Below, piece by piece: positions 59,770 through 63,184 of a stretch of 64,000 bases of DNA. The stretch is taken from assembly GCF_002002865.1 (NCBI RefSeq), contig NZ_CP019508.1:496001-560000 (forward strand), written 5' to 3'. The position numbers and the translations under genes were made by a program. Numbering within the stretch: the stretch's first letter is position 1; the number at the start of each line of letters is the position of its first letter. Below the pieces are notes generated by a model. It saw only the letters and a list, made by a program, of their open reading frames with translations. It had not been told where the DNA came from and ran no database searches. This stretch comes from Brevundimonas sp. LM2. Lineage in GTDB: Bacteria; Pseudomonadota; Alphaproteobacteria; Caulobacterales; Caulobacteraceae.

Positions 59770-60213
59770 ATGCCCGCCGCCGTCCATCTGGAGCTGGTCT
59801 TCAGCCGTCCCGAAACCACGCTGGGGGTGACCCGCGGCGCGGCGCGTCTGCTGGCCGACATGGGCTATGCGCCGCTGCTGGAGGTCTGCCTGCCCAACGG
59901 CCGGAGAGCCGACGTCATGGCTGTGGGCCGCAAGGGCGACATCGTCATCTGCGAGGTCAAGTCGGGCCTCGACGACTTCCGCGTCGACCGCAAATGGCCG
60001 GAATATGCGCCCTTCTGCGACGCCTTCTATTTCGCAGTGGCCCCGGAGTTTCCCGAGGGCGTGCTGCCGGACGAGCCGGGTTTGATCGTGGCGGACAGCT
60101 TCGGCGGGGCGGTGGTACGCGATGCCCCGGTCCTGCCCCTGGCCCCCGCGCGGCGAAAGGCCCTGACGCTGGCGTTCGCGCGGCTCGGGGCGATGCGGAT
60201 TATGAGGGAGTAG
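59770..60213 (+). CDS. mmcB: MmcB family DNA repair protein (PD-(D/E)xK-like)
   Basis: The 147-residue protein matches MmcB (DUF, PF06319-type): GAARLLADMGYAPLLEVCLPNGRRADVMAVGRKGDIVICEVKSGLDDFRVDRKWPEYA. A nuclease-like core Asp (RRADVMAVG) and ExK (CEVKSG, about 61-65) suggest a PD-(D/E)xK fold. In Caulobacter, MmcB is a LexA-controlled protein needed for resistance to mitomycin C, and a LexA box lies before this gene. Its last codon pair and stop (GAG TAG) fall in the first copies of a 7-nt repeat array. Confidence 0.9.
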   Translation: MPAAVHLELVFSRPETTLGVTRGAARLLADMGYAPLLEVCLPNGRRADVMAVGRKGDIVICEVKSGLDDFRVDRKWPEYAPFCDAFYFAVAPEFPEGVLPDEPGLIVADSFGGAVVRDAPVLPLAPARRKALTLAFARLGAMRIMRE

Positions 60214-60281
60214 GGAGTAGGGAGTAGGCATTTAAGCGCGCCAGCGGACGCTTCTACTGCCTACTGCCTACTGCCTACTGC
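60206..60281. repeat. Inverted 7-nt repeat array A (stop-codon repeat) between mmcB and regA
   Basis: The left arm has three copies of GGGAGTA (60206-60226) and a partial GGCA; the right arm has four copies of CTACTGC (60254-60281), whose reverse complement is GCAGTAG. The arms can pair with one mismatch per unit and pair exactly next to the loop (AGTAGGCA with TGCCTACT). The array supplies the mmcB TAG stop and lies between two converging genes. Confidence 0.85.
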
Positions 60282-60287
60282 CTGATC

Positions 60288-60863
60288 TCAACGCGGCGCC
60301 CGCTTGGCCAAGATGCGCTGCAGGGTCCGTCGGTGCATGCCCAGGCGGCGGGCGGTTTCCGAAACATTGTGGTCGCACAGCTCATAGACGCGCTGGATAT
60401 GTTCCCAGCGGACCCGGTCGGCGCTCATCGGATTGTCCGGGGGCTCGGGCGCGTCGCCAGTGGCCAGCAGGGCCTTGACCACGTCGTCGGCGTCGGCCGG
60501 TTTGGACAGGTAGTCGACCGCCCCGGCCTTGACCGCCGCCACCGCGGTGGCGATGGCCCCATAGCCGGTCAGCATGACGATGCGGGAATCGGCCCGGCGC
60601 TCGCGGATCGCCTCGACGATCTTCAGGCCATTCCCGTCCTCCAGCCGCATGTCGAGCACGGCGAAGGCGGGGAGCAGGGTGCGCAGGGTGTCGGTGGCCT
60701 CGCCGACCGAGCCCGCCGTCGTGACCTGGAAGCCGCGCGATTCCAGCGCCCGGCCCAGGCGGGTGCGCAGGGCCTGGTCATCGTCGAGCAGCAGCAGCGA
60801 GCGGTCCTCCAACCCGGCGATCCGGTCTTCCATGGAGGCGGTGGCAGTCAGTGTCGTCGGCAT
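60288..60863 (-). CDS. regA: Redox response regulator of the RegA/PrrA/ActR family
   Basis: The 191-residue protein has a receiver with Asp71 (VLDMRLEDGNG) and the LTGYGAIATAVAAVKAGAVDYLSKP segment. A Fis-type HTH at the C terminus (HNVSETARRLGMHRRTLQRILAKR) is nearly invariant in the family. RegA/PrrA activates or represses genes for respiration, photosynthesis, nitrogen and carbon fixation when oxygen falls. The paired kinase is 72 bp upstream on the same strand. ATG 60863 has GGGAG 9 nt upstream. Confidence 0.93.
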   Translation of the reverse strand: MPTTLTATASMEDRIAGLEDRSLLLLDDDQALRTRLGRALESRGFQVTTAGSVGEATDTLRTLLPAFAVLDMRLEDGNGLKIVEAIRERRADSRIVMLTGYGAIATAVAAVKAGAVDYLSKPADADDVVKALLATGDAPEPPDNPMSADRVRWEHIQRVYELCDHNVSETARRLGMHRRTLQRILAKRAPR

Positions 60864-60935
60864 TGCAGTGATCTCCCTGATCCCAAGTCGGCTTCCGCAT
60901 CGTCGCGGTCAAGCGGTGCGGCGAAGGGTCGCCGG

Positions 60936-62390
60936 TCAGGCCTCCAGGGCGCGACGCGGCCAGCGCACGGTCACCCGGGCCCCCCGGTTGGCCCCCGGGC
61001 CCCCGTCCCCATGGCCGACCGCGACCTGACCCCCGGTCCGTTCCAGCAGGGTGCGGGCGATGAAGAAGCCCAGTCCCATGCCGCCCTGATCCGCCGCCGC
61101 CTCGGCGATCTGGGCCTCGCTCGCCTTGCGGCCCGACCGGGCCCGGCTTCCGGCCGCCGCGATCTGCTTGGCCAGGGCCTGACGCGCCTTGCCCTGAGGA
61201 CGGGAGGTCACATAGGGCTCGCCGAGCCGGGGCAGGACGTCGGCGGAAAAGCCGGGGCCATCGTCCAGCACCTCGATGGTGATCCACTGCACGTCGGCGG
61301 TGGCCTGTACGCGGACCGTACAGGCGGCGAAATCGGCGGCATTCTCGACGATGGCCGACAGGCCATGCACCACTTCGGGCAGGCGTTTGACGTGCGGGGC
61401 GGCCATGCCGTCGGGGGTCAGGACCTCGACTCCGATGTCGAGGTCGAAGCCCAGATGCGGCTCCACCACCTCGGACAGCAGGGCCTTCAGCCCGACCTCG
61501 GCATAGAGGTCGTCGCCGTCCTCCGGCCGCTGCGACAGGCGTTTCAGGATGTCGCGGCAGCGATCGGCCTGCAGCAGCATCAGCCGCGCGTCCTCGGCGA
61601 TCGGGCCGTCGGGGGGCGAGGCCCGCAGAAGTTCCTTGGCGACGATCTGGATGGTGGCCAGGGGCGTGCCCAGTTCATGCGCCGCCGCCGCCGCCAGACC
61701 GCCGAGGGCGGCCAGCCGCTGTTCGCGCTGCAGCACGTCCTGGGTGGTGGCCAGGGCCAGTTCCAGCTTCTCGGCCTCGGCCGCCACGCGCCAGGCATAG
61801 GCGGCGGTGAAGACCACCCCTGTGCACAGGGCCAGTCCGACGCCGAACCGGTAAAGGGGGGGCAGGACGAGCTCGGTCCCCGCCAGCCAGGGCAGGGGCA
61901 TGGACCAGAAGAACAGGGCTGTGGTCGAGACGAACACCATGAACCCCAGGACGATGGCCTGACGCCCCGGCAGGGAGGCGGCGGCCACGGTCACGGGGGC
62001 CACCAGCAGCAGGCAGAACGGGTTTTCCAGCCCGCCGGTGAAGGCCAGCAGGGCGGTCAGCTGCAGGATGTCGAAGCCCAGGTGCATGGCCGTCTGGCGA
62101 CCGTCCGGCAGGCGGCTGTCGGTCTGGCGCAGGCGCGACATGGCCGACAGGTTCATCACGGCGCTGGCCCCGATGACCGTCAGGCATTCCCACACCGGCA
62201 GGGGGAAATGCAGCATCATGACCAGGACGATGACCGTCGCCGTCTGTCCGGCGATGGCCAGCCAGCGCAGGATGATCAGGGTGCGCAGGCTCAGGCCCCG
62301 GGCGCGCCGGGGCAGTTCGCGCCATCCGGGCAGGGGGGTGCCCTGCGACGTGTTGGCCGCCAGGGCCGGGCTGGTTTCGCTCTGATCCAC
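60936..62390 (-). CDS. regB: Redox-sensing histidine kinase of the RegB/PrrB/ActS family
   Basis: A 484-residue kinase with six predicted transmembrane helices (about 35-195). The ubiquinone-binding heptad GGLENPF (119-125), the H-box with His238 (AAAAHELGTPLATI), a conserved Cys278 (QADRCRDIL) in the position of the redox-active Cys of RegB, and G-boxes (DDGPGFS, GGMGLGFFIA) are all present. I prefer GTG 62390 as start because the longer frame overlaps the divergent SCO gene; no strong ribosome-binding site is visible. The gene order SCO - RegB - RegA matches regB/senC/regA clusters. Confidence 0.92.
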   Translation of the reverse strand: MDQSETSPALAANTSQGTPLPGWRELPRRARGLSLRTLIILRWLAIAGQTATVIVLVMMLHFPLPVWECLTVIGASAVMNLSAMSRLRQTDSRLPDGRQTAMHLGFDILQLTALLAFTGGLENPFCLLLVAPVTVAAASLPGRQAIVLGFMVFVSTTALFFWSMPLPWLAGTELVLPPLYRFGVGLALCTGVVFTAAYAWRVAAEAEKLELALATTQDVLQREQRLAALGGLAAAAAHELGTPLATIQIVAKELLRASPPDGPIAEDARLMLLQADRCRDILKRLSQRPEDGDDLYAEVGLKALLSEVVEPHLGFDLDIGVEVLTPDGMAAPHVKRLPEVVHGLSAIVENAADFAACTVRVQATADVQWITIEVLDDGPGFSADVLPRLGEPYVTSRPQGKARQALAKQIAAAGSRARSGRKASEAQIAEAAADQGGMGLGFFIARTLLERTGGQVAVGHGDGGPGANRGARVTVRWPRRALEA

Positions 62391-62445
62391 GACGGGTCTA
62401 TAGACCGTCCCCGCCGCCCTGTCGGCCCTGCCCTGCGGAGACACG

Positions 62446-63069
62446 ATGCCACGCCGTTCCATTCTGTTGTTCGCCGGCGCCTGCGTCGCCATCGCCGCCG
62501 CCCTGGCGGCCGTGACCGTGGTCGTGGTGACCGGTCGGGATCAGGCCGCGGCTGTGGCCGACGGCTCCGCGACCGGCCAGGCCTCGGTCGGCGGACCGTT
62601 CCAGCTGGTCAACCAGGACGGACAGGCCGTCGACCAGACCCTGCTGAACGGCCGATGGAGCCTTGTTTTCTTCGGCTTCACCTATTGCCCCGATTTCTGC
62701 CCCACCACGCTCCAGGCCCTGGAGGCGACCAAGGCCCGGCTGGGTCCGGCGGCCGACGACATCCAGATCGTCTTCGTCTCGGTGGATCCGGCGCGGGACA
62801 CGCCCCAGGCCCTGAAGGACTATCTGGCCAGCGACGGCTTTCCGGCCGGGGTCGTCGGCCTGACCGGCACGGAGACCCAGGTGAAGGCGGCCGCCGACGT
62901 CTACCGCGCCTATTACGAAAAGGTCGGCACGGGGCCGGACTACACCATGAACCATTCCCTGACGGTCTATCTGATGGGCCCCGACGGCCGCTTCCGTTCG
63001 GCCCTCGCCCACGACCTCGGGCCCGAACGGTCGGCCCAGCTGATCCAGCGGGTGATGGCGCGCGGTTAG
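62446..63069 (+). CDS. SCO/SenC family copper chaperone for cytochrome oxidase
   Basis: A 207-residue protein with one N-terminal membrane anchor (SILLFAGACVAIAAALAAVTVVVV) and a thioredoxin-like SCO domain. The copper ligands are Cys81 and Cys85 (TYCPDFCPTTL) and His170 (TMNHSLTVYL). It delivers copper to the CuA site of cytochrome c oxidase. It is divergent from regB by 55 bp, as senC/prrC is linked to regB in Rhodobacter. Its TAG stop is formed by the first unit of a 7-nt repeat array. Confidence 0.92.
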   Translation: MPRRSILLFAGACVAIAAALAAVTVVVVTGRDQAAAVADGSATGQASVGGPFQLVNQDGQAVDQTLLNGRWSLVFFGFTYCPDFCPTTLQALEATKARLGPAADDIQIVFVSVDPARDTPQALKDYLASDGFPAGVVGLTGTETQVKAAADVYRAYYEKVGTGPDYTMNHSLTVYLMGPDGRFRSALAHDLGPERSAQLIQRVMARG

Positions 63070-63184
63070 GGCTTAGGGCTTAGGTCTTAGGGCTTAGGTC
63101 TTAGGGCTTAGCCCAGCTTCGGCTCCACCCCCGCGTCGTCGTCGCTACTCCCTAAGCCCTAAGCCCTACGACCTAAGCCCTCCC
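63066..63184. repeat. Inverted 7-nt repeat array B (stop-codon repeat) after the SCO gene
   Basis: The left arm holds six TTAGGGC/TTAGGTC units (63066-63107) and a variant seventh, TTAGCCC. A spacer follows. The right arm has CTACTCC and then CCCTAAG, CCCTAAG, CCCTACG and ACCTAAG (63145-63177), plus CCCT. The arms are inverted copies of the same unit. The CTACTCC unit is the reverse complement of the GGAGTAG phase of array A. The first unit supplies the SCO stop codon. Confidence 0.85.

Follow-up and report, generated by a model that had tools for sequence, protein, structure and literature searches.

Two inverted arrays of seven-nucleotide (7-nt) repeats were analysed in a 64,000-nt stretch of the genome of Brevundimonas sp. 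LM2 (contig NZ_CP019508.1, positions 496,001 to 560,000 of the forward strand; this whole stretch is called the window). Each of these dyads consists of TAGGNNN heptamers, a spacer and then inverted heptamers. Dyad 1 lies at 60204-60284, between mmcB and a convergent response-regulator gene, and dyad 2 at 63067-63182, between an SCO1/SenC gene (SCO) and a co-directional gene. They share geometry and heptamer class with the arrays that bracket genes of the family PF05635 (23S_rRNA_IVP, 'S23', a four-helix bundle; here IVP), a short unrelated spacer replacing the gene. The window dyads most likely belong to this IVP element family, which is related in design to the intervening sequences of 23S rRNA and to the Xanthomonas heptamers. 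The features of the locus are as follows.

60204..60228, + strand: dyad 1 left arm, GAGGGAG, TAGGGAG, TAGGGAG, TAGG
60229..60252, no strand: dyad 1 spacer, 24 nt; no blastn match (E 0.01) to other LM2 spacers or to 81 IVP genes of the genus
60253..60284, - strand: dyad 1 right arm, TAGGCAG units, inverted
63067..63112, + strand: dyad 2 left arm, units TAGGGCT and TAGGTCT
63113..63143, no strand: dyad 2 spacer, 31 nt; no blastn match (E 0.01) to other LM2 spacers or to 81 IVP genes of the genus
63144..63182, - strand: dyad 2 right arm, TAGGGCT, TAGGTCG and TAGGGAG units, inverted
59770..60213, + strand: mmcB (PF06319, 1.3e-50); TAG stop supplied by the first TAGGGAG unit
60288..60863, - strand: response regulator with a Fis-type helix-turn-helix, convergent with mmcB; its end is 3 nt from dyad 1
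62446..63069, + strand: SCO1/SenC gene (PF02630, 6.8e-47); TAG stop supplied by the first TAGGGCT unit
63217..63999, + strand: gene downstream of dyad 2, continuing beyond the window end; we take it to be PHA (polyhydroxyalkanoate) depolymerase-like from its peptide, read by eye

A first-pass annotation, made from the letters of the window, had described direct heptamers, a spacer and inverted heptamers at both loci, and this layout was confirmed at the coordinates above. From its list of left-arm units, TAGGCAG proved to be a right-arm unit of dyad 1, whose outermost left unit is GAGGGAG and falls within mmcB. The interval it had given to the feature, 60206..63184, holds both dyads, and the genes between them are not part of the feature. 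As it had reported, the stop codon of mmcB and that of SCO are each the TAG of the first full TAGG unit. Matches to TAGGNNNTAGGNNNTAGG with at most two mismatches numbered 15 in the window, 14 of them in the two dyads, and the same pattern in 100 dinucleotide-preserving shuffles of the window had a mean of 0.59 and a maximum of 5. The dyads have a terminal inverted repeat able to form a long stem, and the hairpin proposed for them was borne out by RNA folding, in which both beat shuffles (z -5.8 to -7.0, two strands). An Rfam search of 59900-63500 up to E 1 matched no family.

Dyads across the genome and the genus

Exact three-unit matches in the LM2 genome numbered 77 (29 forward, 48 reverse), and the pattern read backward gave 0. 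About 20 dyads were found, with the TAGG strand on the left and CCTA on the right wherever both arms were seen (by eye), and the 195.7 kb cluster of the genome held one additional right-type array. In the genus, TAGG arrays were present in 57 of 101 genomes. The suggestion of one spreading family was thus upheld, and the refuting outcome that the annotation itself had named, a pattern present at the two window loci alone, was not seen. One dyad (L046, G000:C1:2862296-2862571) has a left arm of TAGGCAG units followed by many CAGGCAA, with 27 units in total. Repetitive extragenic palindromes or bacterial interspersed mosaic elements (REP/BIME) driven by a REP-associated tyrosine transposase (RAYT) were rejected as an explanation, since a search of the LM2 genome for PF01797 (RAYT, Y1_Tnp) gave 0 matches, with 5 of 14 controls detected.

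IVP genes between inverted heptamer arrays

The 487-nt dyad at G000:C1:1515438-1515924 has a 400-nt spacer that holds a PF05635 gene (E 4e-37). A second IVP copy in the LM2 genome (L328, G000:C1:42119-44370) looks broken: its PF05635 match spans only 21-104, its start lies in a different frame, and GGTGGCT heptamers stand on its flanks. Against these 2 copies the genome has 19 gene-less dyads. In the genus PF05635 was present in 52 of 101 genomes; arrays and IVP occurred together in 39, arrays only in 18, IVP only in 13 and neither in 31 (Fisher P 0.00013, a test in which kinship is ignored and IVP-bound arrays are included in the count).

Inverted arms were defined by an ungapped score of at least 14 between the two flanks of an IVP gene, and the shifted control used the same loci 500 nt further out. 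In the genus, 86 matches were listed and five fragments omitted, leaving 81 loci, 79 of them with both 100-nt flanks. Inverted arms were found at 77 of the 79, against 7 of 76 in the control, and a direct match of that score at 3 of 79. A strong self-match at lag 7 was seen in 51 left and 55 right flanks and on either side at 60 of the 79 loci; at lags besides 7 and 14 the number was at most 1. The heptamers themselves vary among the genus loci, including TAGG types, GTGGCGA, GTGAGTA, GGTTCGA, GTGGCTA, GTGAATC and others (by eye).

The same arrangement was observed well outside the genus. From a scan with the LM2 IVP, 80 of 431 relatives were taken, mainly from Alphaproteobacteria and also from Cyanobacteria, Chloroflexota, Verrucomicrobia and Planctomycetota; inverted arms were present at 76 of the 79 with usable flanks (control 4/74). 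Among 48 of the matches listed in a phylum-wide set, 33 had inverted arms (control 0/47). All six plasmid loci examined, out of 36 records, had them as well (three Cyanobacteria, Gemmatimonadota, Azospirillum and Riemerella; control 0/6). Six further genomes, five of them from Cyanobacteria, Chloroflexota, Verrucomicrobia and Planctomycetota, contributed 25 of 30 loci after five weak fragments were dropped, and 23 of the 24 with usable flanks had inverted arms. The family f46 belongs to the same phylum as LM2 and was likened to Xanthomonas solely for its GGGAATC arrays; 29 of 30 loci taken from a longer list had inverted arms (control 2/30), with units that include GGGACTC, GGGAATC and GGGACCG. 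Its member G412 gave 209 overlapping three-unit GGGAATC matches, many within one array, and three consecutive GGGAATC were found in 0 of 6 g118 genomes. When these overlapping sets were pooled and 22 repeats removed, inverted arms were present at 226 of 247 distinct IVP loci, compared with 11 of 232 in the control and direct matches at 24 of 247.

Two variations on this arrangement were seen in passing. The Gemmatimonadota plasmid locus has 8-nt units, and arrays of 8-nt units, possibly a period variant, surround the IVP at L245 and at the G715-G720 loci. A single GGGAATC array at G412:C1:326879-327564 runs to about 98 units.

The arrays lie close to the gene, at median distances of 34 and 41 nt from the IVP domain. 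For 59 of 78 elements the predicted fold has 70% or more of the left arm paired with the right arm. At the distinct IVP loci 287 arrays had a callable unit, with 91 distinct units. Read inward, 255 of the 287 have more G than C, 23 have equal numbers and 9 have fewer. In 79 of 113 elements the two arms had an identical consensus unit, as opposed to 5% after right arms were shuffled among elements. The IVP genes are under purifying selection (median dN/dS, the nonsynonymous to synonymous rate ratio, 0.09), as estimated from 100 within-site pairs that were filtered for equal length and moderate divergence and are not independent of each other. A sequence search turned up two relatives of IVP with solved structures, 2gsc (XCC0516) and 2rld, and each entry contains five chains. 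A bAvd profile matched the LM2 IVP weakly (8e-5), below its cut-off.

Two IVPs, L235 and the Azospirillum locus L246, lie inside 23S rRNA genes (RF02541) and have degenerate heptamers. Two IVP copies of equal score were found in one genome (G347:C1:1863760 and 2100178), one of them located in a 23S rRNA gene. Heptamers of rhizobial loci, including L088, L091, L095, L121 and L149, differ by species (27 of 80 loci viewed). These rhizobial elements presumably lie between nuoC and nuoD, and other IVP-bearing copies inside what we take to be carA-carB, accB-accC and aguA-aguB, all named from peptides by eye.

Shared sites and agreement of the arms

The 81 IVP loci of the genus correspond to 19 sites. 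On the IVP tree, which was built from 105 columns and has many unresolved forks, the 13 shared sites required 14 changes (minimum 12; shuffled 51.6), so each site would mostly represent one arrival followed by descent. Inversion of IVP was seen at 2 of the 13 shared sites, each flanked by convergent genes. Where the neighbouring genes are co-directional, IVP reads in sense at 8 sites and in antisense at 2, each of the latter known from a single locus.

Several sites were seen with and without the gene. For the mmcB site (S14), 30 loci were fetched, one of them from LM2 and ten without both flanks, so that 19 other genomes were compared. In G035 a whole IVP element with TAGGGCT-type arrays (L063) stands between the same two flanking genes; L063 has a degenerate left arm and falls, like one other genus locus, under the threshold for inverted arms. 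Gene-less dyads of other heptamers occupy the site in L392, L397 and L402, only 13-21 nt are present in L405, L412 and L417, and the remainder have other sequence (by eye). In L392 and L397 the first unit of the other-heptamer dyad apparently gives the stop (frame by eye). A third LM2 dyad (site L042) was compared in nine species, LM2 included, with a gene-less dyad (degenerate in L254), two with IVP and seven with 16-25 nt only; the empty, gene-less and IVP states were thus each seen in different species. Between G060 and G117 the spacer at this site is inverted, with a score of 23.2 against a maximum of 12.7 in 500 shuffles. Overall, IVP sites of other species coincide with 3 of the 19 gene-less LM2 dyads, the mmcB dyad included, where 0.11-0.17 would be expected (P about 0.0002-0.0007, assuming 2000-3000 equally likely intergenic sites).

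What relatives carry at the SCO site varies: some have as few as 8-33 nt there, L161, L175, L178 and L180 have other dyads, and unrelated palindromes were also seen (by eye). In L165, L170, L172, L177 and L179 the place is taken by another palindromic stretch between the genes, about 134-157 nt long (CTCCCCC...GGGGGAG or similar). In L185 and L188 an insertion of about 1.05-1.1 kb, seemingly gene-holding, separates SCO from the next gene. A motif on the inner flank common to gene-less dyads and IVP ends was also sought by eye; the candidates were unconvincing and were dropped.

Species differ in the heptamer that they have at a given site, yet the two arms of a locus tend to agree; eight sites were examined. 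At S01 the arm match was 24.7 within loci versus 14.4 between loci (P 0.0002), and at S02-S04 within-locus agreement was found at P below 0.015.

A proposed element family with two forms and its alternatives

The following systems from the literature come closest to these dyads. The 23S rRNA intervening sequence of Coxiella is 428 nt long and has an S23p open reading frame (ORF) within a stem-forming terminal inverted repeat, with three tandem heptamers (GACAGAT) of strain-variable copy number just before the S23p gene; its excision by RNase III has been shown in vitro (PMC4990558). IVP is also found in rRNA genes of bacteria of the candidate phyla radiation (PMC11270868). The LM2 IVP element of 487 nt resembles such sequences in protein family, in size and in having its ORF in an inverted repeat, and L235 and L246 bring degenerate heptamers into 23S rRNA itself. 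In contrast, the window dyads lie between protein genes, have many-unit arms and belong to a type in which gene-less copies are common; large-type intervening sequences have an IVP/S23 ORF, whereas the window spacers (24 and 31 nt) are without one. Intergenic heptamers of Xanthomonas and Nostoc, GGGAATC and GGGGA(C/T)T, were reported near sense-strand stop codons by Rehm et al. 2015, with convergent inverted pairs numbering 70 in one Xanthomonas genome and 75 in another (PMC4692102). They are like the window dyads in being intergenic, near stop codons and in convergent pairs. They were described as G-quadruplex (G4) repeats, and the IVP genes of f46 sit between GGGAATC arrays; the window units TAGGGAG, TAGGCAG, TAGGGCT and TAGGTCT fit neither GGGNATC nor GGGGA(C/T)T. 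The terms 'S23', 'four helix', 'intervening' and 'helix bundle' are all absent from the main text of that paper. TAACTGA heptamers of Beggiatoaceae, Cyanobacteria and Bacteroidetes comprise 169 direct sets and one indirect set in the studied genome (PMC4679880); they are likewise 7-nt tandem repeats between genes but almost all direct, and neither 'S23' nor 'four helix' occurs in the text. Finally, Avd of the diversity-generating retroelements (4DWL) is related to the IVP structure 2GSC (PMC10053308) and belongs to the same fold family.

We consider it probable, though well short of settled, that a single element family takes two forms, the dyads and the IVP elements. The window dyads are placed in it because both share geometry and heptamer class with IVP-bearing copies and dyad 1, at mmcB, also shares its site with one, and they are best filed as a real, genome-wide element, an intergenic variant of the IVP/intervening-sequence kind. 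By analogy with 23S rRNA intervening sequences, transcription of the host gene or operon would let the arms pair into a long hairpin whose stem RNase III would cut. The IVP protein would be made from the host transcript and probably act on the repeats as a predicted five-subunit nucleic-acid-binding ring, a role proposed from kinship to Avd; the pentamer is suggested because 2gsc and 2rld have five chains and Avd is related. Slippage would lengthen and shorten the arms, and template switching across the inverted repeat would let one arm copy the other; this would account for the tendency of both arms to change heptamer jointly and for the occasional inversion of the spacer. Stop codons would be a side effect tolerated at gene ends.

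Several results weigh against this proposal. Fifteen of the 48 phylum-wide IVP loci were below the inverted-arm threshold, some without a clear array, and the IVP genes of L207, L227 and L229 lie between direct, not inverted, repeats. TAGG arrays are present in 18 of the 49 genus genomes without detected IVP. The flanks of the SCO dyad matched no IVP site among the 81 genus loci. No agreement of the arms beyond that of the site was found at S05 and S08, and the values at S06 (P 0.06) and S07 (P 0.2) were weak. Nucleic-acid binding by IVP is a guess, since the IVP domains have almost no net charge (mean +0.4 over 255 sequences, some repeated), and movement of IVP would be slow, since its copies mostly descend vertically within a site. 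At E 0.01 in blastn the gene-less LM2 spacers matched neither the 81 genus IVP genes nor each other; the idea that gene-less dyads are full elements that lost IVP and kept traces of it was therefore rejected, and derivation by deletion is unsupported. Alternatively, the dyads may be older and IVP genes may have moved into them.

The last point leads to the strongest alternative, in which the dyads came first and IVP is a separate gene that targets heptamer dyads as landing sites or is sheltered by them. The excess of gene-less dyads over IVP copies in LM2 (19 to 2, one seemingly broken), the sites seen with and without the gene and the lack of a common spacer sequence all fit it. Alone it leaves the heptamers of 23S rRNA intervening sequences unexplained, unless those began gene-less, and we regard it as possible but clearly behind the two-form family.

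Plain microsatellites, with heptamers grown by slippage, inverted pairs made by template switching and IVP hitch-hiking into repeat-rich gaps, would account for the free variation of units and copy number, for the agreement of arms within a locus and for arrays without detected IVP. Hitch-hiking does not, however, predict the bracketing of IVP at 226 of 247 distinct loci in several phyla, the tightness of that bracketing (medians 34 and 41 nt) or the inward G-rich strand of 255 of 287 arrays, and this explanation seems to us unlikely.

The function put forward in the first-pass annotation was a readthrough-proof end-of-gene device that combines frame-independent stops with a terminator stem. 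It is in keeping with the ends of mmcB and SCO within arrays and with the strong hairpins, and TAG occurs in 20 of the 60 commonest units compared with 10.2 after letter shuffling, 20 being reached in 1 of 2000 shuffles of units that are not phylogenetically independent. As a general function, the frame-independent stop did not hold: the G-rich strand lacks any stop codon in 49 of the 91 distinct units and in 117 of the 287 arrays. The terminator stem was not supported, on weak evidence: 0 terminator-like sites in 59900-63500 (shuffle mean 1.0) in a scan restricted to loops of 3-8, and by eye no T-run after either arm of the window dyads. Many LM2 dyads lie within a few nt of a stop and some within a few nt of a start, and a rough codon-usage gene caller placed the 20 dyads between gene pairs oriented ++ (6), -- (6), +- (5) and -+ (3), that is, 12 of 20 between co-directional genes. 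In the apparent aguA-aguB copy, the right array seems to form the translated beginning of the following gene (by eye). Such a device is therefore very improbable, and the window dyads are better read as the gene-less form of the IVP gene element.

Least probable of all are regulatory G4 repeats as proposed for Xanthomonas and Nostoc: GGGAATC-type oligonucleotides form G4 and convergent pairs are reported (PMC4692102), but a GGG-containing unit occurs in only 103 of the 287 arrays, the commonest unit, GGCAGTA (41/287), has no GGG, and a convergent arm favours a hairpin. By eye, dyad 1 has three GGG tracts followed by GG, and dyad 2 has four GGG amid GG.

A wider version of the two-form family can be put forward only tentatively: arms and IVP would constitute one phylum-spanning element class in which an IVP ring reads tandem heptamers and the arms are rebuilt pairwise by a templated process, with the Xanthomonas/Nostoc heptamers and the 23S rRNA intervening sequences as forms of the same class. 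If this is true, IVP, known since the 1990s without a function, gains a substrate, for which the heptamers would be the likely candidate if the link between them holds. The link would join the S23/IVP protein, the Xanthomonas/Nostoc heptamers, whose role was left open, and intergenic dyads, each of which has been described apart. In the open-licence PMC literature we found no description of it, subscription papers and outside preprints being beyond the scope of that search. The elements also offer natural material on how inverted arrays remain alike.

The dyads of LM2 lie closer to the contig start than expected by chance (mean 518 kb versus 891 kb, P 0.00025), and an ORF resembling DnaA was seen near the contig start (by eye).

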